Source of the DNA: Bimuria novae-zelandiae CBS 107.79
Taxonomy: Eukaryota > Ascomycota > Dothideomycetes > Pleosporales > Didymosphaeriaceae
Assembly (NCBI GenBank): GCA_010015655.1
Contig: ML976733.1
Coordinates: 170,489-234,488 of the forward strand
Direction: 5' to 3'
DNA: 64,000 bases
Below, piece after piece: positions 3,338 to 63,979 of this stretch (position 1 is the first letter of the stretch; each line of letters begins with the position of its first letter). Both the position numbers and the translations under genes were made by a program. The notes under the pieces were generated by a model. That model was not told the DNA's origin. It searched no databases and saw only the letters and a list, made by a program, of their open reading frames with translations.

Positions 3338-3525
3338 GGGCAGGCAGGCAGGCATATGAGGACAACAAGCTGTATTGCTATCTGCAGAAAAGAGTGTGTG
3401 AAGTGAGGAGTCATTGTTGAGCAGAGAGAGATAGCGGGGGAGAGTTTGTTGGGTTAGTAGTCCGTGCACCTAAGTAGTACGTTCCATGTATACCACCTCT
3501 GACGTCAGTCACGTGGCTACATATA
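3338..3525. repeat. Dispersed repeat, copy A (partner at 58689-58877)
   Basis: About 185 bp here are repeated at 58689-58877 in the same orientation. Shared blocks include the GGCAGGCAGGCAGGCAT run, AAGCTGTATTGCTATCTGCA followed by GAAAAGAGTGTGTG, TTAGTAGTCCGTGCACCTA, and ACCTCTGACGTCAGTCACGT followed by GGCTACAT. The copies differ by point changes and small indels. Both keep a CRE-like TGACGTCA next to a CACGTG box. No terminal inverted repeats are visible, so its class (solo LTR, MITE or segmental copy) is open. Confidence 0.85.
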
Positions 3526-4931
3526 CCGAGTGTTCAAGTGGCGGGAGTGCGTATATCTTCTAACAGGGCGCGTAGAATGGCTGTGGAGAGTATGCAGAGA
3601 GCAGAGCGTCGCCCTTAAAAAGTATCTACCCTTCGTACTTTTCGATCTGCCCCGTTCAGACAATGATGGCATAGTTTCGACGCCCAAAAGCTCGACCTAG
3701 CGTAAGTAACCTTCCGGAAGCCAACGGTTGGCTAATTTTCTCGTGCTCTTCGGTTGGCTGTACTGTCTTATCGACGGGACTAAGTCACCCCTCCTTCAGG
3801 AACAGGATGTGCACATAAAATATCGACGAAGTCGAGACTGGTTTGTCGTAATGAACGCACTTCTGGGACTCGAGCATAATAGATTCCCATAGTGCGTAAA
3901 ACGACTGCTGAGAACTAGAGTAGATCCGCTTCGCAATTCTACCTCACAAACATATCCCACTCGCCCTTTATACGCTAATATATACATAAGAGCAGCAACT
4001 AATTCCAACACAGCAAGCCGAACCGGTAAACACAGCAAAGGGATGATGTGAGAATCCAAGTAAATATTAATTACATAGCAGCAGAATGGCAACCGGTGCC
4101 TAGGAGAGACCCTGGGAAAAACATCAGTGATAGCCACAGCTTCGCCGACTCTATACTCGAACCAAAGCGCAAATAAAAATCTTCACAGTGTTATCTTTAA
4201 GCTGTAAACAAGAGGAGAAATGTCTTTCTGAGCCTAAAAATGACCCAAAGGTATATCCGCCGAAATAGAAATTATAGAATGACCGTACCTTTGCACCATT
4301 CCCTGGGTCATCTAACACTTTACTCGCGCCATTTCTCCTGTAATTGCTTCCCAGACTTCCCCCAAACCCACCACCTCTACCCTTAACAAACACCCCTTCC
4401 AAAACAAACCCTCTCCCAAACCCTTTCACAGCCACCACCCCTTGCCATCCTCTTCAACACCTTCCAACGACCCCTCTCTAATCACAAAACCACGAGCTTC
4501 GTTAAACCTACAATATCTAGCGTTCTTTTCCTCTTCCATGTTACCCTAGGACGAGCCATAAACTAGGTGACTTACTACTTTATACCTGGGCGGTAGGACC
4601 GGAATATAGACATAGACGGGGGCGTAATAGCAGTTTTAATATTATAGCGAAGAGCTTTGCAAAATATTGTCCGAGACCGCTGACGCTTCTCCGTGGGGTT
4701 GTCGTCTGTGACCGTCAGGGCACAAGGCTAACCCAAAGCTGCGCAACCATCTACGTGCGCCTGTTACGAAAATGTGGAATATATAATTCAATCAAGACGA
4801 ATCATCTAGGGCCGTCTCATCAGCGCAGCGCTCATGCTCGCATCCCACTCAACAAACGCAGCGTGACCCATGTACACGTACAAGTCCGCACCCAAACCCC
4901 CCTCTCAATACCTCCCCTAACCACTCCATGC
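3526..4931. other. Intergenic, no gene supported
   Basis: Open frames on both strands are short and biased by composition (C- and A-rich around 4340-4480 and 4830-4990). The right end is the 3' flank of the LAA1-like gene. I see no conserved domain, RNA gene or clear repeat. Confidence 0.5.
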
Positions 4932-17844: not shown

Positions 17845-18051
17845 GTCCGTTTCCTTTGGCCGTTTTTAGACCCCAAGTTCAACCGGACATGATTTCGTCC
17901 TTTGTAATTTTTTCGTCCCACCAAAACCACATAGCTGCTTTAGCTTTGCGGTTTTTGGACACCTCGTCCAGCAGTACATGCACTTGCTCTATGATGTATT
18001 TTTAGACCCCCAGAGGCGCAACACATAGGTCGACACGTGACCAGTTTTTAG
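17845..18051 (-). ncRNA. Candidate spacer-array unit S1 (five spacers)
   Basis: Plus-strand reading shows repeats beginning TTTTAG, TTTTCG or TTTTTGG and ending ACAT, separated by spacers at 17845-17863, 17891-17909, 17933-17951, 17980-17998 (19 nt each) and 18027-18044 (18 nt). Transcribed on the minus strand, each spacer is preceded by an AAAA-ending repeat (GGTCTAAAA, TGTCCAAAAA) and followed by ATGTNN. The promoter-like elements lie just upstream on that strand (18108-18180). Spacers share no similarity by eye. No frame is kept across repeats, so I read it as non-coding. Function is unknown; a processed guide-like RNA is the working idea. Confidence 0.55.
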
Positions 18052-18107
18052 TCGACCGCCCCAGCGCCGTTCTGTGAAGACGAGGAAATTGTCCAGGAGG
18101 TTGGGTG

Positions 18108-18180
18108 TTTATATCCATGTCACCTGATCGAAAGAGGACGGGATGGTGCTTCCATTGATGGTGAAGTTCCCCATCATCAA
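18108..18180 (-). promoter_or_regulatory. Operator-like palindrome plus TATA box of unit S1
   Basis: On the minus strand a palindrome with arms TTGATGGTG / CATCATCAA (18155-18180) is followed by a TATA box (GGATATAAA, 18108-18116). About 60 bp further lies the first CTAAAA box of the unit. The same order and spacing recur in the other arrays, which supports a real promoter. Confidence 0.6.
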
Positions 18181-18259
18181 CCTTGAGAGCAAATACATTT
18201 GGAAACCTGCATGCGTGCTTCACGCTCGTGGATTCAGAAAGGCCAGGCTCGGCTAACAT

Positions 18260-18329
18260 GTAGCCGTGTGTTAGAAGGTTTTAGAGACAACGACGAGGCA
18301 CGCATGGCATTCTGCGAGTCCTGTTTTAG
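18260..18329 (-). ncRNA. Candidate spacer-array unit S2
   Basis: Two spacers, 18260-18278 (19 nt) and 18306-18323 (18 nt), flank a 27-bp repeat (18279-18305) that starts TTTTAGAGAC and ends CGCAT on the plus strand. The unit is driven, by position, from the TATA at 18387-18396 on the minus strand. The left end passes into unit S1 territory near 18250. Confidence 0.5.
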
Positions 18330-18386
18330 TGCGGCAATTCTACGCAGGATTGTGTAGGAGGAAAGAGTCTTGAGGATACAGTGGGG

Positions 18387-18455
18387 TTTATATAGGTTTT
18401 TGCGGGGGACGGGCAGGATTTTGGTATTTGGCTGAGTGGTGGTGCGCGTCATCAC
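18387..18455 (-). promoter_or_regulatory. Operator-like palindrome plus TATA box of unit S2
   Basis: Plus-strand GTGGTGGTGCGCGTCATCAC (18436-18455) is the imperfect palindrome; TTTATATAGG (18387-18396) is the minus-strand TATA. Order and spacing match the other array promoters. Confidence 0.55.
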
Positions 18456-18727
18456 GGTGGAAGCACTCACGGCAATAGAGTGTAGTCTTTGTAGAAATAC
18501 CAGAGAGTTTCGGAAGCGGTAAGATCTGTATAAGAGGATTTGAGGTGCGGTGGGATGTGTGATGGATTAGTTTGACTTGTCCTCTATTGTTGAAGTATCC
18601 GTGCCCGTATCCGTATCCATCTAGATCCATTGTAAAACGCCTTCCTGATATGCCGTGATGCTGGTATAACCCTCCCATCTCCCTTCGTGTTCCCTACTTG
18701 TAGAGCTTTCATCGCCGCCAGCGACCC

Positions 18728-22048: not shown

Positions 22049-22837
22049 ATATCCGCGGTATATGAAGATTGTACGCAGTGCGTCAGTGTGAGAGAAAGAG
22101 GAGGTAGTGCAGTCAGATGTAAATAGATATAACTTACTATCAACGATGTATGTGCTTGCGCTCGTACGTCTAGAAAATCTCCCTCGTGCGTTCCATATGC
22201 TTCTACGGGCGTGTCTAAAATCCGCTTCAACCCCTCTCTCCCTGAGCTGGGATCGGAGCGAGCGAGTGGTCGTGTATGCTGGTGCGGCTCCATTCACAAT
22301 GGCGACGTGATTGGGTATGTGCGTGTTGGTTGGCCTGCTTTCCGTCCTAAAACCACAAAGAAGGCTCCAATAAATTCCTCCACCCTTCTCTCAAACACCG
22401 AAGCACAAGATCGATGTGATGCCCTGGGCGTGTCTAAATCTGCCCCTGTACCTACACATGTGGGACTCGCGCTTCCGTGACTTAAAAGCCGCACGCTGGA
22501 AAACGAGGATAGAGGAAGTTTCTCTAGGAGGGGTTGGAAAATATCAACCTTGGCCTGCATGGGTTGGTGCCGCTTTGTTGAAAGTAGTGGGGTGAATTCG
22601 ATGTGTACGTGTGGCGTGCTGTTGGGACTAAAAACTGCACAGAGGAGGGTTACGTGTTTCTCCAGCTTAGATGGAAACATATGGGAATACGAGTGATGGG
22701 CTGGGCTGCTCGCGGTGGGGAGAAAGCTATATTAAGAGACCTGCTAAGGTGCTTCGCGCGTGTCTAAGGTTTGACGCGCCGTGGTGATGTTCCTCACTAT
22801 CGTTCGAATTACCCCATCCTTTCTTCTTGGGGAAAGG

Positions 22838-23074
22838 TATATAAACCTCTCTCTGCCGCGTTGGAGTCTTCCTTCTCACACTACTCCTCCGAGCCTTGCT
22901 CACTAAAATTGTACGAAGAATGTTTCGATGGGCTGCTTTTGCGCTCTAAAAGTACCCAGACCTGCTCTCGATATGATGTGGACTTTCTGCCGCGTCCTCT
23001 ATAACTTCGTCAAACATTCAAGGAAGAAGACATTGGCTGCCTTTAGGGTCTAAAATGCACTGCGCACTTCTCGC
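22838..23074 (+). ncRNA. Candidate array unit L1
   Basis: TATATAAA at 22838-22845, CTAAAA at 22903-22908, spacer 22909-22927 (19 nt), repeat 22928-22951 (starts ATGGGCTGC, ends CTCTAAAA), a 24-nt second spacer to ATGTGG at 22976, then a further CTAAAA (23050-23055) with a 19-nt spacer 23056-23074 before ATGTTGTGC. A 42-codon frame from 22928 also stays open to a TAA inside a CTAAAA box, the main coding alternative. Confidence 0.45.
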
Positions 23075-23488
23075 ATGTTGTGCGGATTTTCTGCGGCGTC
23101 TTATGAATGAAATATTGCAGATGTTTCGATTGTATAGTGTACGGGGCTTTTGTTGATGATGCGAACCATCACTGTTTAATCGTGGTTGTGGGGTGTGAGT
23201 TAAGACGGGCGGCGGGTATATAATCCCGCTCTTCCGCGACGAAGTCTTCTCCTCACACTACTCTCGAGTCGTTCTCTAAAATAATGGACTCTGCTCCTTC
23301 GTGGGCTGCTTCTGGACTCTAAAAGATGCGCAGCAATACTCTATTGTGATGTGAACTTTCCGCCGCGGCTCATGAGCATGAAGAATCACCTTGGTCGTAG
23401 GATTTACTAAGTTTTTTGTTTGTGATGGTGCGCATCATCACTGTCTATATAGGTGGGTTTTCAGGTGTAAGTTAAGACGGTTGGCCTG

Positions 23489-23840
23489 TATATGAATCCT
23501 CCTCCTCCACATCCAAAACTTCTTCCACACTACCCGGCTGAGCTCGTTCTCTAAAATGACCCGACAGAGGAATACATGGACTGCTTCCCGGCTCTAAGAT
23601 CCCATGCCGCCACCTCCATGTGCTGTGCAATTCGCCACTAAAAAGTCTATCTCATGAAGAATATGGACCTTCGCTGTGTCGAGATTAAGCCTTCTTCAGA
23701 CTAGTCCCCTGCGCCCTGCTCTCTAAAGGCAACCAGAAACTCGGCATGTGGACTGTTTCTAGGGTCTAAAAGTCCCTGCGGCTCCGCCTGATAGGGAGCG
23801 GCCCTGGCTTCGCTTCTAAAATGTTCATGCGATGAGGTGC
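23489..23840 (+). ncRNA. Candidate array unit L3 (six spacers)
   Basis: TATATGAA at 23489. Spacers: 23557-23575 (19), 23600-23617 (18), 23644-23662 (19), about 23728-23745 (18), 23772-23790 (19), 23822-23840 (19). Boundaries are CTAAAA, CTAAGA or CTAAAG on the left and ATG or ATA on the right. It looks like two fused units, since a TATA is missing between them and the distance to the next TATA is longer than usual. Confidence 0.5.
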
Positions 23841-25070
23841 ATGAGCTCCTCGCCGTGCTTTGGGGAAACGGCTTTGAGCGTAGGCGTCTTGAGACTTTTG
23901 ATGATGCGCGCCATCATTGGCTGCTCGAATCGGCGTTTCGGTCTCCTTCGAGATGGTAGGCGTGCATTTAAGCCCTTAAATTCTCTGCAAGAAATTTTTC
24001 TTCTCACACTACTCCGCTAAAACATTTTGTCTAAAATAAAGCCCACCAAGATGCCATGGGACTGTCTAAAAATCGCTCTACATGGGCTGATGTGGATCCA
24101 AAACAAGATACTTGCACGTCATGGACTGCTGCAGTTTGTGGGGTTTCCGGGGATGGTTATATCTCGATAGCTGTTCGGTGGTGCGCCCCATCACTACAAG
24201 TACTTCCTTAAGCGGTTTATCGCGCCTCTGTCAAGATAATCAACGGGCATATAAGCCCCTTAAATCCCAGCGAGAGACTATTCTTCTCACGCTGTTCCGC
24301 AGGGGCATTTTGTCTAAAAACCAGCGTTCTTTAAGAAAATGGGACTGTATAAAACTCATCGTACACGCCTTGATGGGCGTCCAAAACCACAATGGCATAC
24401 TTGAATTGGGGGTGCGGGATCTGGTTTGGCTCTGTGGATCGTTATCTTGAGGTAGCGGGATAGCGGGATACATATGTAGTGGGTTTGATGATGATGCGCA
24501 CCGTCAACGCTAAAGGAGTACCTTATCTCTGTTCAGCTGGGTAGCGTGTATATAAACCCACACTTCTGTTCGGAGACATTCCTCCTCGCATCTCTCCCCT
24601 AAGGCACCTATATTTTCTCTTAAAACAGGCGACCAGAGTCGTTATGAGATTCTCTAAAACAAGGAAGACACGAATTCATATGGCTGTGATTCTGGGTCTA
24701 AAAACATGGACCTTAAATTTTATGAAGTACTGGACGTCGTGTGGCACTAGAAGACCCTTGCGTCTTGATGACGGTGCAGAGCTTGATGATGATTAAGCTC
24801 ACTACTATCTAGGTGAGTTGAGCCCATTTCGGCTGACTGGCGTGTATATAAACCGCCATTCTGAATGGAGTTTCTTCACACACTACTTTTCTAAAACGAT
24901 TTGACTAAAAAAACATAAGACACCTGACCATGTGAGATTATCTAAAAAAACTCAAACCGACCTCATGGGTTGTGCCCGCGGGTCTAAAAACGAGTATCTG
25001 AGGTCGCTATGGACGCGGGCCTTCGTGTGACTGTGGGGGACGTGCATGTCCCAATAGCGATGCAGTGTTT

Positions 25071-25136
25071 AATGGTGATACTCACCATTACACCGGGTGA
25101 GATGAGTCCGCTCTGGCTGGCTGACGTGTATATAAA
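25071..25136 (+). promoter_or_regulatory. Operator-like palindrome and TATA box of unit L8
   Basis: AATGGTGATACTCACCATT (25071-25089) is a perfect palindrome with 8-bp arms and a 3-bp centre. TATATAAA follows at 25129-25136. This is the cleanest operator copy in the array; others are variants such as TGATGGTGCGCATCATCA (23423-23440) and GGCGATGCGCATCATC (25657-25672). Confidence 0.65.
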
Positions 25137-25656
25137 CCGACGATCCCTTGCAGAACCTTTCCCTTTACGCCACTCTGCTAAGGCCTTCACTAAAAAGCAC
25201 GCAAATAGTAAACGCAAAGCGTGATGGGGTTGTCTAAAAACATAACGAGAATAAGATCCATGAGATGCGCTCTTGGGGCTGAAAGCTAGCATCTTATCTC
25301 TTCATGGGTGCTGGACTTTCTGTGGCTCTAGGAGTGTCTATTTCTCGACGGCCACGCAGTGCATAATGGTGATACTCACCACTACTGTCTAGCTGAGTTG
25401 AGTCCGTTCCGGTTAGATAGCGCGTATTTAAATCCGTAAATCTTCTATAAACATAGTTCCTCACGCTACCCCACTCCTACTCTCTTCTCTAAAAGACAGG
25501 AAGCGCCATTGTATGAGCACCTTTCGAGATTGGGTCATCGATACTGAATGGGCTGCGCCCGCGGGTCTAAAAGCATATTGGACCACTCTTATGGGCCGCT
25601 GGGTTTGGCGTGTGCAAAGGAATTATTTTGTGCTTGGATAGCATTGTGTTATAGCT

Positions 25657-25877
25657 GGCGATGCGCATCATCCTCGAATACGTGAATTGGAACCTGTTTG
25701 GGCCACGGGCGTGTATATAAACTCTACGCTTTGCTGGATTGAATTTCTTTCACACTGCTTCTCTGTAATGCCTCCAAAAACATGCCGAGCTGGTGATCAT
25801 AGGCACCTTGAAAAATTGGATCATCAACACACAATGAGCTCTGCCCGTGGCTCTAAAATTTGTTGGAACCCGTTGAA
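25657..25877 (+). ncRNA. Candidate array unit L10 (three 19-nt spacers)
   Basis: Palindrome 25657-25672, TATATAAA 25714-25721, CCAAAA 25774-25779. Spacers 25780-25798, 25815-25833 and 25859-25877 are each exactly 19 nt. The first repeat (25799-25814) is only 16 nt, ATAGGCACCTTGAAAA; the second (25834-25858) is 25 nt, starting ATGAGCTCTGCC and ending GGCTCTAAAA, with GAGC/GCTC arms that could pair. Constant spacer length next to variable repeat length is especially clear here. Confidence 0.55.
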
Positions 25878-27060
25878 ATGGGCCGCTGGACTTATTTTGC
25901 GCCTGAGAAGATCTCCTTTCACGTCTGGACAAGGTTGTATGGTATCTAGGTTTGGTGGCGATACGCATCACCGCCAGCCGTGAGAACTTGCTACTCTTGG
26001 GAGGGCTAGTGTATATAAACCCCTCACTCCACCGCGAATATTGTTTTCTTTGTACACAGTTCTGCACTGCGGTGGTGCACTAAAAGGCAACTATGGTGAT
26101 GATAATAGGTGTCTCGAGCAGGGGGGATGTCTAAAATCCTGGGACCAATACGAGATGAGCTGTTGGGAGGTGTTTTAAAAAATGGAATACGCTGAATTAT
26201 GTGCTGCTCGTGGCCTTTGGTTTGCCTGAGCTACAAACTTCGCAGCTACGTGTTGGTATTGGGGGATGGAAAGGTCGCTTGGGTGCGTTTGTTGATGATG
26301 CGCGTCACCGTTAGCTATGTTTTGAGTGAACTCATTACCCTTGGGACGGCCGGCATGTCATATAAACCATCCGCTTTTTTGTGATAGATTCTTTCATTCT
26401 AAACGGTACAGCACTTCGGTGATCACTAATGATCACTAAAACTCGACCCAATTGCGACCCATGTGTGGTTCCTGGGTCCGAGGTCTAAAATGCCAGTGTC
26501 ACATCCACTATGTGGATCGCCGGGGCGGGCCCAATTACCCCATCCCCAACACGCGCGCGTGCCCGTGTCAAATATGCGACGTGTCGCCTTGGGAGTGTCT
26601 AAAAAGGTTTGAAGACTCACTATGGACTGCCCGGCCCGGTTCGCCTAGGCTCATAAATCATGTCGCGCTCTGCCATGCGTTGTTTGTCAGAGTTTTATAG
26701 TAGGGTCTTTTAAGCGCTAAATTGATGATGCGCGTCACTGTCAGTCGTGTGAAATCATTTCCTTTGAGACGGTCGGCGTGTATATAAACCTCCTCACTCT
26801 ACTGCGACAGAGACTTCCTCTCCACACAGAATTACACCAGGAGGAGGTGCACCAAAAAGTCCAAACCCTGGCAAGCATGCGTGCTTCCTGGGATTTAAAA
26901 AAAAGGTGCGGAGCCTTGCAATGTGCTGCTCCAGCCTCGTATCGTCGGAAAATGAAGATGGAAATTGGCTATGGACTGTCCGTCCTGGTTTTTTGAAAGC
27001 ACTGTTCGGCAGACTCATGTTGTGCTTTGTCTATTATGGCAAGATCCTCCAAACACCTTT

Positions 27061-27126
27061 GGTGAATATGCGCATCGCCATCAGCTGTGTAAGTCGAGCT
27101 CACTTCAGCCGGACGGCGTATATAAA
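27061..27126 (+). promoter_or_regulatory. Operator-like palindrome and TATA box of unit L14
   Basis: GGTGAATATGCGCATCGCC (27061-27079), continuing ATC, is the operator variant; TATATAAA lies at 27119-27126, 54 bp before the TTAAAA box at 27180. Confidence 0.6.
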
Positions 27127-27179
27127 CCCTCCCTCTACTGTGACAAACTTTTCGCCACACACTTCTGCACCGTGGTGCA

Positions 27180-27300
27180 TTAAAAAGTTCACCTCTAGAG
27201 CTCTATGTGTGGCCCGTGGAGTCTAAAACACACGAATCGTCACGAAATGTGCTTCTCCGGGATTGTCTAAAATACGTGCCTCAAGGTTTATATGCCGTTG
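27180..27300 (+). ncRNA. Candidate array unit L14
   Basis: TTAAAA 27180-27185; spacer 1 27186-27204 (19 nt); repeat A 27205-27228 (24 nt, ATGTGTGGCCCG... to GTCTAAAA); spacer 2 27229-27246 (18 nt); repeat B 27247-27272 (26 nt); spacer 3 27273-27291 (19 nt); then ATGCCGTTGGGACTGG. Repeat A is identical in the next unit while the spacers are unrelated. A 21-codon frame (27205-27270) runs through repeat A, spacer 2 and into repeat B. Confidence 0.55.
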
Positions 27301-27380
27301 GGACTGGTGGGCGTGAATAAAAACTCCTCCCTCTACAGTAATAAACTCTTCCCTACACACTTCTGCACAGCGGCGGTGCA

Positions 27381-27510
27381 CTAAAACAAGAGCACCAGCG
27401 GTTTCATGTGTGGCCCGTGGAGTCTAAAAGAATCGGTGCATGAATGCATGTGTTTCTTTGGGATTGTCTAAAAACCCATGCATCAAGATTCATGAGCTGG
27501 TGGGACTGGC
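27381..27510 (+). ncRNA. Candidate array unit L15
   Basis: CTAAAA 27381-27386; spacer 1 27387-27405 (19 nt); repeat A 27406-27429, identical to that of the previous unit; spacer 2 27430-27447 (18 nt); repeat B 27448-27473, differing from its neighbour at three positions, all C/T; spacer 3 27474-27491 (18 nt); then ATGAGCTGGTGGGACTGG. The TATA is degenerate (TGAATAAA, 27314) and no operator lies between this unit and L14, so it may be a partial duplication. Confidence 0.55.
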
Positions 27511-27870
27511 AGACGCAGACAAAATCTCCTTTAGCCATGTGCCGCGATTTGAGCATCTACAGGAAGGTCCAACAAGCACTTCGGTGAAGATGCATATCAC
27601 CATCGTTAAATAGAACGAGGTTTCCAAGTCTGTGTTAGCTTGGAAGCGGTGTATACAAATCTCTTGCTCTGCTGGGAGCGACTTAACTCTGCATGATACT
27701 GCACTGTGGTGATGCACTAAAACAGAACGACCACGCGTTGATGTGGCTTGTGGTGTCTAAAACTTGTTGAGCACCAGCCAATGTGCTGCTTCGCAGGCAT
27801 TAAAAGATGAAGGAGGAGAACGCTATGTGCTTCTTCTGGGAGATGTCGTAAACTTTAACCGCGTCATCGT

Positions 27871-50541: not shown

Positions 50542-50611
50542 GAGAGGGAGAGGGAGAGGGAGAGGGAGAGGAAGAGGGAGAGGGAGAGGAAGAGGGAGAG
50601 GGAGAGGGAGG
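50542..50611 (+). repeat. GGGAGA purine microsatellite
   Basis: An almost pure run of GAGAGG/GGGAGA units begins a few bases after the stop codon of the SPT small-subunit gene and so lies in its 3' UTR. Two interruptions read GGAAGA. Confidence 0.95.
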
Positions 50612-51728
50612 GCATCGGGTGGGATAGGGCAGCTGCGAGGGTATACGGAGGGATAGGGATGGGTGCGAAGGGACAGCAAAAACTCTGCAGCGAGAATATA
50701 CAGAGGGATCGGTGGGTGCGAAGTGGCAGCAGGGACGCTGCAACGGCTCACCGCTGCGCGCTCTCTGGGGTCCTCAGACATCCTTCTTAGACACGGGCGT
50801 TACAACACGCACGGGCGGCGTTTTGGTGCATGGAAAAGACACTCACAGGCCGCTCCTTGCAGCGCTGATATACTACATAATGTTAATGAACTCTACCACA
50901 CACTCATTGGCTGTCCACTTCATCCACATTCTCCGCGACTGGATGCCCCATCCCAGTACTCTCCAGAGAACAGTCCTGCTTGGCACCTCCACTCGTACGA
51001 CCAGGGCGCGTCGAAACATTCCAGAAACCTGCTAAAGCCGGCTAAACGGCATCACGCCTGTTTTATATACCTTCAATTTACTCGCTACATTGAGAAAGTC
51101 CGGGGACCAGGTTTTCGGACAACGAGACGGTATCGCCATTCCCACAGCGTCCAGGACATCAACAACCGTCTGGCCGCCATGCTCTCCAGAGCTTCGCAAG
51201 CTTTTCAAAGCCACCGTCAAGACTGGGATGTGTGGTACGATGATAGAGCAAGGATATCAACTTTGGAGCCTCGCAAGCTTCGAGAAGCCGCGGAAACCAA
51301 GGATGTAAACGTGAAGTATCATGTTTGCCTATAGTGTGGGACATGGTGATAGAGCGAAGATAAGAATACGTTGCATTATATATGCCTTTCGACGCGTCGT
51401 CGAAGGAAGAATAGTATACAGCATAGCTGAATGTGTGTACATCGTAGGTAACGGTAACGATCATCGAAAAGCCAGACCAGACATACAATCAAACGAAAAC
51501 GTGAGGTAACAAAGTACAGCGAACTGTAAGAATGTGAAAAATGTTAAGACGTATCTAACACCCAAGTGTTCAAGATACTGTGAAAGGTCAAAACGCTAGC
51601 ACAGGTCGACCATGCAAGTCATGGGACACCGAGAGAATGTGAAGGATGTATACCGGTCAATGTCGGGGTTAATGGTCCTTTGGAGGTCGTCGTAGTGATA
51701 CTCCAGAGAGCGGTCGGATCGGGACAGA
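50612..51728. other. Intergenic, no gene supported
   Basis: Frames up to 223 codons (50663-51334 plus) have low-complexity or random-looking content and no domain. Left unannotated. Confidence 0.45.
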
Positions 51729-56651: not shown

Positions 56652-58688
56652 TAGGGGATGGATGAGCTTTAGAGGAAGTATGACATGATGGTATGCTCGT
56701 GTATAAATAATGATTGGTTTCAAGGTTGCGCCTTGGACTACGTGAGATGTGATTTCCAATCAAGAGTGAGGCATTGGTAAGACACGTGATCACCGCAAGG
56801 AACGAACCAGGATGATGGAGATCATCATCACCACTCGAACTTCTTTCTCCCACAATCACTTCGCCGCGGGCAAAACTTCTCCATAGTGTACCGCGCTGTT
56901 CCATTTTAGCTCCGCAGACGCACCATTAATCGTTGTTGACATTATTTTTAGTCCTGAGCAGCAAGCCATCAACACCCCCATCCAACTTTTTTTGTGAGAG
57001 CTAGTGATCCATACGCATAAGGAAGAAATTGAGAATTGTACTTGTTGTTGTATTGGGTGAAGCTACGAACAGTAGGTATACATGAGTGGCTGTAAACAGC
57101 GCTAGTGTAGGATGGGTAGTCGCATCTCAACACAGGTGAGGCGCCACTGCAAGTGGGGAAAGGGAGACTCCAAACCGTGACATTTTTAGTCTCTGTTCCA
57201 CAGAGGTAATCCTGTGAAGAAAATTATCCAGCAGCTGAGGGGGGTTATATACTCCTCCCACCCATGAAAAACCGATATAGGGACTTTGGTGCCCGGCATC
57301 GCATCTTGTTCAAAAGCTTCCAGTCATGTGTCGCCCAAGCATGAGATGGAGTTTTATTCGTGGTGAGTGCCATCACCACCACGATATAACGAAATATCGC
57401 TATGTACGGCTGAGGGACGCAGCGGCTCTTTCACATAGACGTGTCGGAGTGGTTTTTGAGAGTGAGAAAAGATGGACTCACGAAACCAGCGCCGCCATGG
57501 CGATTGCAGGAACGAGTTTTTAGTCACGCGGCAAAACTCCCATAACGATTCATCTTCCGTAGTTTTAGTGCTGCTATTCGCAAGTGAAGTGGCGCGCTCG
57601 TCTCGGAAAGTGTTCAAGTTTATAAACAGCGGAGAGAGCCTCACGCCTCCATAATCAGAATCTTCGTTGAGTTGAGTATTATAGAAAACCTTCCATCGGC
57701 TTGCGACGGTTGAATTTGTAGCGCTGCTCTCCGTTACCAGAGTGGTGAGCTTGTCTCGGGAGAAGGTTTTAATGTGATAAAGGGTGGAAGAAGGCTCACA
57801 CCGCCATGATAACCTTCGTGTATTCTTTTAGTCCCACAGACAAGACTACCATGTGGTCTTGTGTGGGCTACTTTTAGTGCATAACTGGATTCCAAGCTCT
57901 CCTCCAGTAAGATTTTGAGGTGATTAAGTGTTGGGGAAGGCTCACGCCGGCGTCAATTTGCTCGGTATTCTTTTTAGTCCTACTCGAACGCTCCATGGCA
58001 GGTTTGTTGGCAGGGTTTTGTTGCGGGTAGCCGGAGCCAGATTCTCGTACTTCTCGTGGAAAGATAGGCATTGGAAGCACAGCGACGCCATTTCATGGCG
58101 AGGTTGAACATTTTAGTCCCACCGCAAAGCTCCATAAACAACTCTTCACGGAAGTTTAGTGTGGTTGCTTGGAGCTGGGATTCGGAGTTTCGATGGAGGG
58201 ATGGTGATTGTATAAGTCCAGCGCCACCATTTCGTGCTTTGGACGTTTTTTTGTTGCCACAGCAAGTTTCCATAATTGCTGATTGTCGATGATCTTAGCG
58301 CTGGCATCTTTAGCTAGAGTTTCGAACCCCCCTCAAGAGAGAGATACGCACTAGACTGAGTCCAACGCCACCATGAATATGCTCCAGGAAGTTTTTAGTC
58401 TCACAACGAGGCTCCCATTTGTGAAGCGATGATCTTTTTAAGTGCGGCTCTCTGTGGCGTGGGATTCGGGCTGTTCAAGATAGGTTGGCATTTGAAGGAG
58501 TCCATAACCACCATGTTTCTGCCTTGAAGGAGTTTAAGTCCCACAGAAAAGCTCACATAGAGAGATCACAGGCCAATTTTAGAACTTGCATATGAAGCGG
58601 GAGTCCCCCGCCGCCATACGAAAACGTTCTCATCCTTTTTTGCTCTCACAAGAAGGCTCCATATTGGCCATCAACAATGACTTTTAGT

Positions 58689-58877
58689 TGTGGGCAGGCA
58701 GGCAGGCAGGCATGGACAAATAAGCTGTATTGCTATCTGCAGAAAAGAGTGTGTGGAGTTGAGTGAGGAGTCTCTATGCAGAAGGAAAGCGGGCGAGAGT
58801 CTGTTGACTTAGTAGTCCGTGCACCTAGGTGGTACCTTCCACACACGCCACCTCTGACGTCAGTCACGTGGCTACAT
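58689..58877. repeat. Dispersed repeat, copy B, inserted in array R
   Basis: Partner of 3338-3525. It interrupts the array: the unit before it ends with TTTTAGTTGT and array text resumes only near 59038. Flanking 58878-59037 is not array-like, so the insertion may be larger than the part shared with copy A. TGACGTCAGTCACGTGGCTA is conserved in both copies. Confidence 0.85.
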
Positions 58878-59865
58878 TAGTATTCTCGGCTGTAGCGCAA
58901 GAAGGAGGACCGGGTCCAAGGCCATTACTGGCTATTTATACTTTCTCTAGTGCCATGGAAAGGCTGTGTTATCATTTATATAGAGCGTTCTCAGTTCTGA
59001 CAGTAATAGTTGCAGTCGCAGGTGCTTTATCAGAAGTATGTGGAAGGAAATAGTCCAGATTCGACGCCGCCATGGGACTTTAATGTCGCGTTTTAGTCAC
59101 AAAATCAAGGCTCCCATCATGACCATCTTGCGGAGATATTTAGTGCTATCTGTTGTAGTTGGTATTGCGAGGATCTTGTCGAGTTCTCTGCCTTTGAACC
59201 ATTTTTCCTGCATCAAGACTGCCACAGGTCGCCCAAGGCTTGGTTTTCAGACTCCCGGAAAGACTTCCATATTTTGCCACTCGAGTTCTTTTAGTGCTCA
59301 CGTTCCTAGCTTGTACAGCAAGTTGCTCTTTAATATTTAACAGATATGCAAAGGGCCAACTCGAACGCCGCCATAACGAGCCTTGCTTTCATTTTTTTGG
59401 TCACAGCGGGACTCCTATACTATTGCTCTTGTCGTATTTTGAATGCTCGCATAAAGGACCTCACTTGTGAGTTTCTCACTAAGAGTGGACGAAAAGTGAG
59501 GGAACTTGGCCTAACGTCGCCATGATTGTCAAGGGTGCGTTTTTTGTCCCAACAGGTAACGCCCCCATGATATGTTTGATCATCTGATTGTAGTACCATA
59601 TCTGTAGCTGGTGCTTCTGGATTCAAGACCGAGTTCAACGCCGCCATAATTTGGTCTAGTCACGTTTTTAGTCTCACAACGAGACTCTCATGAATCAATG
59701 ATCTATGGTGTTGCACTGCTTTCAAAACTGCTTTCGGGAGCAACAAGTCGTCCAGACCCGCCATGTCTCTACATATCATGTGTTTATAGTCCAGCAGCGA
59801 GGTTCCATAACATGGTCAGCGTAGTCTTTTAGGGCCACATCCGTCGTTAGTGTCGGTAGAAGCAA

Positions 59866-60009
59866 GATCAAGCAGACTTGTCAACAATCAAGCCAATCAA
59901 GCCGGTCTAGCCTAATATGGTAATTCACTAGCTCGTGTAGGTTAAGATGTTACCAAATTTGGCTAGATCGGCTTGATTGGCTTGATTGTTGACAAGTCTG
60001 AGATCAAGT
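59866..60009. mobile_element. hAT-type MITE with 8-bp target duplication
   Basis: Element 59874-60001 (128 bp) has terminal inverted repeats of about 40 bp beginning CAGACTTGTCAACAATCAAG at each end, with one mismatch. It is flanked on both sides by AGATCAAG (59866-59873 and 60002-60009), an 8-bp duplication typical of hAT elements. It carries no coding sequence. It landed just upstream (plus reading) of a CCAGCGCCGCCAT segment of array R. Confidence 0.95.
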
Positions 60010-60120
60010 CCAGCGCCGCCATAGTCTGAGATATAGCCGCCCTTTTAGTCTAACACGCAAGACTCCATGGAAAGGCTGTTAGTTCAATTTTAGTCCTGCC
60101 ATCCGTAGGTTGTACCAGTA
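60006..60120 (-). ncRNA. Candidate array R unit next to the MITE
   Basis: Plus reading: GCCGCCAT, 20-nt spacer, TTTTAGTCTAACACGCAAGA continuing CTCCAT, 19-nt spacer, TTTTAGTCC. On the minus strand the repeat reads ATGGAGTCTTGCG then TGTTAGACTAAAA; AGTCT and AGACT can pair, placing a hairpin directly before AAAA and the next spacer. Confidence 0.5.
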
Positions 60121-61361
60121 AGGACGAGACCAAGTCCAACGCGGCCATAAGATGATGTTGCATGGATTCCCAGTCCAAAAGACAAAAGTTCATGATGGTG
60201 GTCGCTTCTTAATTTGAATACAGCTTCTGGAAATGCTGTGGGTAGAAGGGAAACCAAGTCTAACGCGGCCATTGAAATGCTTGAAGACAGTTTTAGTCCC
60301 ACACGCAAGAGTCCCATGCTTTTTCCAGGTCTATCTTTTATTGCTACCCCAATTGCTGTAGTGATGTAAGAGAAGTAAACCCACCTTGAAGAAGGGGTCT
60401 TTTATACCTTCACGGAGTTTTGTATGTCCGAATGGCGTTCAGTTCGCGGATCTCACTTTAAAAACATCGTGGGAGAGAGATAGATAGTGGAGATCATCAT
60501 CGCAACTAGCAGTGCTCACGTCAAAACCAGAGTCATGGGTCCGTGGGGAGTGAAATTTAGGTATTTTTGCTGAGGTACACCGCTTTTTGGAAAGGCAGGC
60601 ACCACATACCTCATAGCCGGAATGTGTAGTATTTTTTAGACCACCCTCAGAGCGCAAAGCGCATGCCTTTGCTCGGCTGCCGTTTTTAGGGTAGATGCTG
60701 AAGATCTACAGTTGTGTGTAGAGAAGAAAGGAAAGTAGGATGCATATGGAGGATTATATACCCAAAAAGGATGTCAAGTGATATGAGGCGGAGTCAGAGC
60801 GCCCCATAGTCGGTTGGTATAGGGGAAGCATCCACAAAGCTGCTAATCACAGTTGTGATAATCATCATCACCAATTTGACGACCTCTCGCGAAAATACTG
60901 CTAGTAGTAGTAGTAGTAGTAGTATTGATTAACGTCCAGGAACATAATGTTCTAGCCTCCCATGGGGCATGGGGACGTGCTAAGCTATATTTACAGAAAG
61001 CGTTTCGTGCCTGTCGGCTGGCTACCATCACAGTAGCCTTGTTGTACATAGCCCATCCTCCCTTTAATAGGTCTACCTGCTACTACAGGCACCTAGATAC
61101 CTATAGTAGCCGGCCCTCATCTGTGAGGGTGTTGTTGTCCTGCCCCTCTCTCCCTCGCCCTTGTAGCTCTGCTCCCGTACTGTCTTCCTCCCCCTACCTC
61201 GTACGAAGTAGGACCTCGTACGAGTTAGCAAGCTGCCTTGTACCTTGAGTAAAAACCTCGTAGGGGAAAACCTCAAGCTTGAACAAGTAGTAGCGAAAAT
61301 ACTGCTAGAAATGCTGCACTGCATATCGGGCACGTTAACTGAAATTTGAGAACGCCGCAAC

Positions 61362-61485
61362 GGGCCAGCTACATGATGCGAATCCTTACGTGTTTCTAGA
61401 CCAGCACAGAAGCTCATGATATCTTGGTTCGACTATTTTGGACCAGCACCAAAACGCATATACCCAGATACACGAAACTTTAGGC
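61362..61485 (-). ncRNA. Candidate array R unit with three 19-nt spacers
   Basis: Plus reading: ACAT, 19 nt, TTCTAGACCAGCACAGAAGC continuing TCAT, 19 nt, TTTGGACCAGCACCAAAACG continuing CAT, 19 nt, TTTAGGCCACCAG. The TATA for the minus strand is near 61586 (CTTATACCC on plus). The two repeats share GACCAGCAC. Confidence 0.5.
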
Positions 61486-63017
61486 CACCAGCACACATCA
61501 GCTTGCTCCTCAGTCGCTGTTAGCCTGCATCTTGCAGAAATGAAGTTTTGTGAAGAACCAAATCTGGCCGAGAGAAAACGCGAACTTATACCCGCTGCTC
61601 GAGCGGTTGCGCATGAGATGCTGCGATGCCGATTTGATCGCTTGCCATGTCTAAGATGCGATCTTGCAGAGAGGGGGAGGTGATAGAGTTGTCCGTTATC
61701 ACTTTGGATCTATCCGAGCTGCTGGCTAAGCTAGTAAGATGGGTCCCGGCAGGATTCACAGCTGCTGCTCATGGGTCAATCACAAAGAGTTTTAGTGTCC
61801 GGAGGCTCGTAGTGTATGGTGCGAAGAAGAAACATTCGCGACAATTTCCGGGGTTTATTTACCCTCTTAAACCGCGCTATACCACATTGATAATGCTACA
61901 TCGATGCGTATAAGTGAGGTAGTGATGCACGCCATCATCATTCTTCGAACCAGAAACCCGTTATTGTCCGCAGACACACCAGCCCGTCGCCCATAGTACT
62001 TGAAGCTTTTGTATTTGAGAGCTCGCATCCATTGGATTCGCAATAAACCCAAAGTCCGTAGCACTCATGGCTCTGCATACAACATGCTTTTAGACCCCGC
62101 CCCAGACTACCATATGAAATACCCGCTCATGAATTTCTAGCGACACATAATCGGTCAATGTGTGAATGGGAGGATTCGTCAGAGCGATGGGGTTTCATAG
62201 TGCCTCTGCTCTCACCTCGAGATGCTGCTTTGATAAAATCCTTCGAGGAGAAACAGCCTCACCGCACTCCATGGTCTGACATTGCTGTACTTTTTAGACC
62301 CCACTTCCACTCCATGCTAGGAAACGTCTGGCAATTTTATTAGTCAAAGACTGGTAGTTTTGTGTGAAGAAGAAGCAGTCTCAGCGAAGGAAGTACGGTT
62401 TATATAGATTTTGAGGCGGCGATATACCACGTGAAACTCTGAGGCTCAAAGGGGGGTAGTGACACGCTGATGGGCAACATCATCTACACTGGAATCAATG
62501 GAGTTTACTGTTCCCAAGGCGACCTCTCCGACACCCATTAGAGTTGTGGTATGGTATATAAGACTCGGTCCATCAACCGCTTCCAACAATCTTTTTAGAA
62601 TCCACCACCACAATCCATAGACGGAATCGTCCACTGGTTTTAGTGGCCAAAAGCCAGTGTTATTGTGTGAAGAGGAAGCAGTCTCCGCAGATAATTAGAG
62701 GGTTTATATACCCATTAGACCAGCGCTATATCATGTCCAGCCTCTAAGACGCACTGAGGGCAAGTGTTGATACGACGATATTGATCATCATCTTCATCAT
62801 CATCCTAAACAAACAGTAGGCCCCGGACTGCTCGCAGAACAACCTCACCGACGCCCATAACAACTTTTCGTTGAATTTTAAGACGTCCTCCATCAGGCAC
62901 CTATCTCATGCTTTTTAGACTCCACCGACGCCATACATTCTATCTAAGTCTCGTCGTATTTTAGTGGCCCAAGGCCAGAGTTGCTTCGTGAAGAAACACC
63001 TTTACGAAGAAAAACTG

Positions 63018-63111
63018 GGTTTATATACCCTTCCAACCGCGCTATAACGTTCCAAAACCACAAAAGACCAAGTACGTCAACTCTGAATATTGCTGCTCAT
63101 CACCATCATCA
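63018..63111 (-). promoter_or_regulatory. TATA box and operator-like region of an array R unit
   Basis: Minus-strand GGGTATATAAACC (63018-63030) with a CTCATCACCATCATCATTG block upstream (about 63091-63109). The first TTTTAG box of its unit lies at 62959-62964, about 57 bp downstream on the minus strand, the same spacing as in arrays L and S. Confidence 0.6.
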
Positions 63112-63811
63112 TTGACCCTCCACACTCCACACTTACTCCAGGACTCACCAACACACGATAACACTGCATGTGCCCGAACGCCGAGAGGCAGATCCATACG
63201 GAAAAACCACCATGGTACAGCTGTCGGACGATTTTAGAGAAAACAGTCCGTCCCATGAAATGCATGTGTGCTTGTTTTAGAACCACCAGAAAAACAGCAT
63301 GGCTTTCTCCTTAATGTGGTTTTTAACGTCTACGGAGTGCGGACAGGCGAACCAGCATAATATAATTGTGGCGAAGATTGATTTTGGAAAACGGATCTGT
63401 CCCATCAGTCAGGACAATAACGACTTTTAAAGACTCCAGGACACGCCGCAAGCCTTCCACAAACATCACTTTTTAGTATCTAAGCCAGCCAGGCGAGCCA
63501 TCATAATCGCGGCGAGTGTCGATTTTGGAGAACGGATCTGCCTCATAAAATTCGTGGCTGCTTGTTTCGGAGCCCCCAGGGAACGCCACATGATTTATCC
63601 TAGCTTCACTTTTTAATGTCTGTGCCCATCGCCGGGTGCGGACAGGCGAGCCAGCATTAAAGCGTCTTCTCACGAGTTTTAGACAAAGCAATCTCTCCCA
63701 TATGTCGTTCCCATTGTGATTTCTGGCCTCCTGGAAACGCCACATATATCTCTTGCATACCGTCTTTTGGTGTGTGCTCTGGCAGATAGGTCCAGACACC
63801 CGACCCACCAT

Positions 63812-63920
63812 CGCACCATTGCTTTTGAATTTTAGATAAAAAATCTCCCATATACCTCGTTACTGCAAGTTTTCTGCCCCTAGGAAACGCCGCATGTTCT
63901 TCCCCTCTTTGAATTTTTAG
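63812..63920 (-). ncRNA. Candidate array R unit near the window end
   Basis: Spacers 63812-63829 (18 nt), 63852-63869 (18 nt) and 63896-63914 (19 nt) separate repeats 63830-63851 and 63870-63895. Minus reading: CTAAAA, spacer, ATGCGGCGTTTCC...AGAAAA, spacer, ATGGGAGATTTTTTATCTAA, ending AA, spacer, ATGGTGGGTC. Three preceding units of similar build follow each other with about 150-bp period back to 63480. Confidence 0.5.
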
Positions 63921-63979
63921 TGTCTGCTCCAACAGCAGGGCGGACAGACGGAGCCACCATATAGCAGCTGCAGACGGTT

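Follow-up and report, generated by a model that had tools for sequence, protein, structure and literature searches.

Tandem clusters of box C/D or H/ACA small nucleolar RNAs (snoRNAs) are RNA polymerase II (Pol II) genes in which tandem units combine a constant frame with variable guide segments, and fungal small-RNA precursors (of microRNA-like RNAs, milRNAs, and small interfering RNAs, siRNAs) release RNAs of ~20 nt. In known guide ribonucleoproteins (RNPs), the spacer is held by a protein groove or by a paired target. For the tandem interspaced guide RNA (TIGR)-Tas systems of prokaryotes and their viruses, the published description gives spacers of 9 nt (up to 12) and two alternating repeats of 8-12 nt, in arrays that adjoin Nop-domain genes (PMC12045711). 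Here, a 64-kb window (the whole stretch of DNA that was analysed, part of contig C78) from the 77.4-Mb genome of the fungus Bimuria novae-zelandiae CBS 107.79, assembled in 191 contigs, was found to contain arrays in which a CTAAAA-like box, a free spacer of 18-19 nt and an ATG-like box recur many times in one direction behind a TATA-like box. The array between 22.3 and 27.9 kb, called array L, is the centre of this analysis.

In appearance, these arrays recall those of clustered regularly interspaced short palindromic repeats (CRISPR), being long and one-directional, with unique spacers of near-constant length (18-19 nt here) and a leader with promoter-like sequence. However, the parts between spacers (hereafter linkers) vary in sequence and length, instead of being near-identical direct repeats of constant length; the setting is a fungal nucleus with ~20 dispersed places, and some spacers are diverged copies of their neighbours. 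No cas-like or defence protein was detected when 10 open reading frames (ORFs) of the window were compared with PADLOC, where the one match, weak at E 0.025, joined the CLPTM1 ORF to CorA. The arrays are thus not CRISPR, and the comparison holds for their look only. An earlier note on this DNA had described array L as a CRISPR-like repeat-spacer architecture with internal promoters in a fungal chromosome, of a kind that it knew from no described fungal element. The fungal setting, the repeat-spacer look with its fixed spacer length and the internal promoter-like sequences all stand, and no description of such arrays was found in the literature searched, in which subscription journals are thinly covered. 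On the other hand, strict CRISPR-likeness falls on the differences just given, and the supposed repeat is a linker of variable length.

The arrays share a constant frame with variable segments, and their tandem units, with snoRNA clusters. They could also release RNAs of ~20 nt as fungal small-RNA precursors do, and the genome has Piwi-domain genes, but the spacers lie outside hairpins and show no pairing within the array. TIGR arrays are similar in that one precursor contains short spacers in tandem, set between conserved boxes that are also short, but spacers of 18-19 nt and variable linkers (mode 20-22 nt over all arrays) place the present arrays outside the TIGR definition of spacer and repeat (PMC12045711).

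The consensus element consists of CTAAAA (also CCAAAA or TTAAAA), 18-19 free nucleotides that often end in a pyrimidine, and then ATG(G/T)G. In 22.3-27.9 kb, the distance from TAAAA to ATG peaks at 18 (13 pairs) and 19 (16 pairs), with 2 pairs at 17 and 3 at 20; the remaining plus strand of the window has at most two pairs at any distance and no peak, and the minus strand of 22.3-27.9 kb also lacks one. A matrix scan of 22.1-28.0 kb detected 54 elements, compared with a mean of 1.3 and a maximum of 3 in 50 Markov shuffles. When elements were called in the same region under a uniform prior over gaps 12-26, gaps of 17, 18, 19 and 20 were obtained 5, 22, 26 and 2 times and all other gaps together 7 times, placing 48 of 62 calls at 18 or 19. 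At this loose threshold, scattered calls elsewhere in the window numbered 15 on the plus strand and 16 on the minus strand, in addition to one at 18,703 adjoining a small array. The boxes stand at a fixed spacing around a free spacer.

Array L belongs to a multi-copy family. Searches of the whole genome gave 13 matches for one pattern (none when reversed) and 86 for a second (6 when reversed), of which at least 5 stem from a single dispersed repeat. Such a dispersed sequence, present in five near-identical copies (C2:1553679, C3:1786330, C7:1154388, C75:164336 and C110:164162), fits the element pattern by chance. The loci fetched around pattern matches comprise 216 kb of distinct DNA, which is not a random sample because they were chosen for matching the element pattern. 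With gaps of 17-20, this DNA contains 865 elements, compared with 115 in the reversed sequence. Under a uniform gap prior, gaps of 17, 18, 19 and 20 were counted 116, 318, 348 and 83 times and other gaps 25-50 times, whereas the reversed control yielded 24-45 calls at every gap. Twenty fetched loci outside the window, two of them overlapping, carry 8 or more strong elements on a single strand and no more than one on the opposite strand; each array runs in one direction, with strand ratios such as 33:0, 0:51 and 1:46. Including the window, arrays occur at ~20 places on 13 contigs (C2, C3, C13, C16, C18, C25, C35, C43, C78, C92, C107, C130 and C146). These paralogous arrays retain the spacer length, and one of them (L025) has 76 called elements behind a single TATATAA at its start. 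Since the second pattern has 54 exact hits in the fetched pool and 86 genome-wide, extrapolation suggests that the genome may contain on the order of 1,200 elements.

Many units share a common start, in which a TGATG/CATCA motif is followed by ~60 bp, TATATAA, ~35 bp, TCACAC, a short hairpin and the first CTAAAA. In 16 units of array L, a TATA-like box precedes the first CTAAAA-like box by 59-72 bp, several of these TATA positions being degenerate and assigned by hand. Among TATA boxes on the element strand that have an element within 400 bp, 51 of 110 have one at 50-79 bp, compared with 15 of 54 on the opposite strand, where part of the signal is expected because TATATA reads in both directions. 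The leader and promoter tests used 51 first elements from 20 sources, with strands counted apart. Upstream of TATA in these 51 promoters, 36 of the 78 occurrences of TGATG, CATCA, TCACC or GGTGA within 160 bp fall at 50-69 bp. In 19 of the 51, the stretch from -100 to -40 contains a perfect palindrome whose arms measure at least 5 (10.3 in shuffles), but upstream palindromy is unproven because this count does not exceed the shuffle maximum of 21. Downstream of TATA, 27 of 34 TCACAC-like sequences fall within 33-41 bp.

The sequence preceding the first CTAAAA folds into a hairpin more stably than dinucleotide shuffles (z -5.0). Stems of at least 4 bp are present in 28 of 51 units (7.1 when shuffled, maximum 14 of 200 shuffles) and stems of at least 5 bp in 15 (2.1, maximum 7); 11 units are stemless by the rule applied, and the other 40 have 36 different 5' arms. 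The signal was lost on shifting the anchor by 6 bases. Swapping 3' arms between units lowered the score from 7.93 to 4.85 (maximum 6.36 of 200) and the number of stems from 28 to 14.5 (maximum 24). Pairing is thus retained through differing sequences, which points to action as RNA. Linker hairpins exceed expectation before GA-CTAAAA (35/100 versus 19.0) and show no excess in the CT, GT and TT contexts (9/74, 10/60 and 2/35), and no hairpin was found when the sequence 3' of the last element was examined for one. Two further structures were rejected: a linker hairpin signal of z -4.9, obtained when CTAAAA was added, probably arises from the invariant run of A, and a helix closing across the element gave only scattered weak cells (best z 4.6) that duplex energies did not support (z -2.3 for T-type elements, with two null means unreliable). 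Taken as a whole, the observation of the earlier note is real and larger than reported: the 22.3-27.9 kb array is confirmed, its clusters are not reproduced by shuffling, and the two other window arrays, the leader hairpin and the genome-wide spread had gone unmentioned in that finding. Its interpretation is supported in part.

All 593 spacers of strong elements are distinct. Positional information amounts to 0.004-0.09 bit in the spacer interior and up to 0.18 at the first base (of 19-nt spacers) and the last base. Spacers are A/C-rich and linkers G/T-rich, and the linkers vary in sequence as well as in length. Allowing up to 3 mismatches, the likeness of 726 spacers to other fetched DNA is at the shuffled level, which linkers exceed, and spacers do not fold on themselves (z -0.1, no hairpin). 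Eight element pairs have 40 flanking bases at least 80% identical (a ninth, from a dispersed repeat, was removed); their spacer identity is 0.21-0.63, with a mean of 0.44 versus 0.43 for random pairs. In the fetched loci, spacers are also depleted of TA, TAA and GTA and enriched in GA, AAG and GAA, a profile resembling that of coding DNA. The possibility that spacers are pieces of coding sequence was examined through trinucleotide correlations (0.80-0.84 with coding and 0.00-0.33 with intergenic DNA) and was not used as evidence, because a correlation of 0.73 with coding DNA is also reached by array DNA lying outside elements, because the larger intergenic set is biased by selection for the absence of open frames, and because of the codon-phase test given below.

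The arrays have grown by tandem duplication of units, and some contain diverged spacer copies of kept length. Within arrays, 6 spacer pairs are alike at 13 or more of 17 positions, compared with ~0.2 expected (all in L056 and partly sharing elements), and 9 are alike at 12 or more, compared with 1.4 expected, including one in the minus-strand array of the window and two in L025. Therefore, some spacers appear to have been inherited with their unit and to have drifted at constant length rather than been captured, which speaks, for at least part of the spacers, against capture as their sole source. Units were also compared with one another, with TATA positions and some elements assigned by hand. 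In six L028 units (a seventh, with its second slot uncalled, was removed), spacer identity is 0.47-0.49 versus 0.43 when shuffled, while linkers reach 0.63-0.80 and the leader 0.58. Between neighbouring units of array L, the excess over shuffles is 0.13-0.19 for linkers, 0.13 for the leader end, 0.07 around TATA, 0.06 for tails, 0.03 for TATA-100 to -55 and 0.01-0.04 for spacers. These values are compatible with spacers drifting at the neutral rate or faster, with no need to invoke capture.

The layout read from these sequences is that of RNA genes: one to many modules follow in one direction after a shared promoter-like start and a hairpin close to the predicted 5' end. The arrays are likely transcribed by Pol II into non-coding RNAs. 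The reading favoured here, although tentatively, is that they form a multi-copy family of non-coding RNA genes whose 18-19-nt spacers would be held by a length-measuring RNA-binding complex, most likely as exchangeable guide-like segments. The promoter-like start would drive a precursor RNA headed by the leader hairpin, a predicted RNA-binding complex would measure the 18-19 nt between the CTAAAA and ATG(G/T)G boxes, and the spacers would serve as guide-like segments that base-pair with targets, while the arrays would evolve by tandem unit duplication with spacers drifting at kept length. A measuring partner and target pairing are suggested because a change in length should matter little to single-stranded RNA hanging loosely between two protein sites, but should not be tolerated by a spacer that is stretched along a protein or base-paired with a target, as in known guide RNPs. 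Several results weigh against this reading. Some spacers drift like the remaining unit, and selection on spacer sequence is not evident, because spacer divergence in array L is close to that of the least conserved promoter piece. Spacers show no pairing with linkers or with the neighbouring spacer (z 2.0, 0.2 and 0.6), linkers have no general hairpin (z +1.9), and 383 later elements lack one (z -0.7) outside the GA context. No effector gene could be linked to the arrays, and the window and six loci have no Rfam match at gathering score, a scan that novel snoRNA families would escape; over 18-32 kb, Rfam gave weak chance-level hits, the sole C/D-like one (sR11, E 0.29) below cut-off. Moreover, four of the several hundred spacers, searched against the whole genome with up to 2 mismatches, found themselves and 7 two-mismatch hits, versus 5 for reversed patterns, which is no more than chance. 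This lack of a target for the four fits an RNA sponge or scaffold, in which a protein would recognise CUAAAA and AUGG at a set distance and the spacer would only maintain that distance and pair with nothing. The conserved boxes around free spacer sequence, and spacers drifting by substitution with their length kept, also agree with such an RNA, but flexible RNA needs no spacing exact to ~1 nt unless a protein holds the spacer, and long arrays of all-different spacers would be unnecessary. It is ranked second and considered rather unlikely.

Two further explanations are both improbable, and to the same degree. Bipartite DNA sites typically have two short motifs at fixed spacing around a free middle, so that arrays of double-stranded binding sites for one protein would account for the element itself, but not for the one direction of each array, the set distance between TATA and the first element or the hairpin pairing retained through different sequences. 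A decaying minisatellite, or non-functional duplicated genes in which the fixed spacer length is a relic, would agree with units arising by tandem duplication, with divergent linkers and leaders and with diverged spacer copies. Against this, Tandem Repeats Finder (score 50) reports no array in 22-28 kb, as it would be expected to do for a classical minisatellite; spacer length is kept over ~20 places where linker length is not, and the hairpin and promoter layout are retained. Least probable by a clear step are mRNAs for short or repeat peptides with the ATG box as start codon. The leaders from TATA+30 to the first CTAAAA are C/T-rich and lack ATG in 47 of 51 cases (37 expected), as such mRNAs might, but first spacers are not ATG-poor (16/51 with ATG versus 10.8 expected). 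When divided by three, linker lengths of 16-27 leave each remainder about equally often (53, 59 and 62), spacers show no frame-specific stop depletion, and the open frames with repeat lengths divisible by three that mark repeat-peptide precursors were not found. The codon-phase z of spacers (1.65) resembles that of array and intergenic DNA (1.5 and 1.8) rather than coding fragments (3.7). The earlier note had named clear coding constraint across the units as a refutation of its finding; no such constraint is seen.

Features of the three arrays in the 64-kb window (positions are those of the window)
Feature	Position	Strand	Details
Array L	22170..27860	+	55 called elements (CTAAAA-like box, 17-20 nt spacer, ATG-like box), ~16 tandem units
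Second array	56909..63940	-	60 called elements, TATA-led units, continuing towards window end
Third, small array	17850..18400	-	7 called elements at 17869-18329; TATA ~65 bp before the 18329 element
TATA box of first clear unit, array L	22838..22847	+	TATATAAACC
Further TATA boxes, array L	23217, 24549, 24845, 25129, 25714, 26012, 26781, 27119	+	
Degenerate TATA boxes, array L	~23486, 23971, 24250, 25425, 26364, 27315, 27652	+	hand-assigned
TGATG...CATCA upstream element of 23217 unit	23153..23177		no strand; similar at 23422, 23898, 24488, 26292, 26722
Leader hairpin, 22838 unit	22888..22901	+	region of GAGC-ctt-GCTC, just 5' of first CTAAAA
Spacer 1 stretch, 22838 unit	22918..22928	+	element box 22903-22908, spacer 22909-22927
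Leader hairpin	26064..26079	+	region of TGCACT-gcggt-GGTGCA, before CTAAAA at 26080
Leader hairpin	27166..27179	+	region of TGCAC-cgtg-GTGCA, before TTAAAA at 27180
Two adjacent units (27180, 27381)	27180..27520	+	first linkers identical; spacers 1 and 2 unlike; spacer 3 partly alike

The ORFs near the window arrays are ordinary fungal ones (CLPTM1, LAA1-like, CCDC90-like, an RRM protein and HET). A stretch of ~160 bp (GACTGACGTCAGAGGTGG...) is common to the minus-strand array of the window (58715-58880) and L025 (~3470-3645, minus), and was judged by eye to be a dispersed repeat or mobile insertion. In the same window array, a 16-base direct repeat, CTAGCAGTATTTTCGC, brackets ~400 bp at ~60900-61310, resembling, again by eye, an insertion with target duplication. 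The segment 16001-18000, which adjoins the small minus-strand array, is AT-rich (GC 0.29-0.35), and ordinary tandem repeats occur at 1550-1732 (56-59 bp), 50542-50610 (6 bp) and 50635-50742 (53 bp). Elsewhere in the genome, 19 exon-level Piwi-domain matches were found (C9, C31, C42, C94, C98, C99 and C124), many of them clustered on C31 and several with internal stops; Argonaute-like genes appear numerous and partly broken. One of the C31 matches has array elements only a few kb away, in DNA with broken frames where a transposase-like ORF was read by eye; this proximity was not taken as linkage.

If transcribed, the arrays would make up a large eukaryotic class of repeat-spacer RNA loci that have their own promoter layout and leader hairpin, of which the searches returned no description. 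Even if the spacers are not guides, a component able to measure an 18-19-nt stretch of RNA between two boxes would still be unusual. A more specific proposal, possible but more doubtful than the favoured reading, is a eukaryotic guide-RNA system in which hairpin-headed, promoter-driven precursors would each carry from two or three to ~75 exchangeable guides of 18-19 nt, on the order of a thousand per nucleus, read by a length-measuring RNP and evolving through unit duplication and guide drift. If the spacers do act as guides, fungi would possess a programmable RNA-guided system unrelated to CRISPR.

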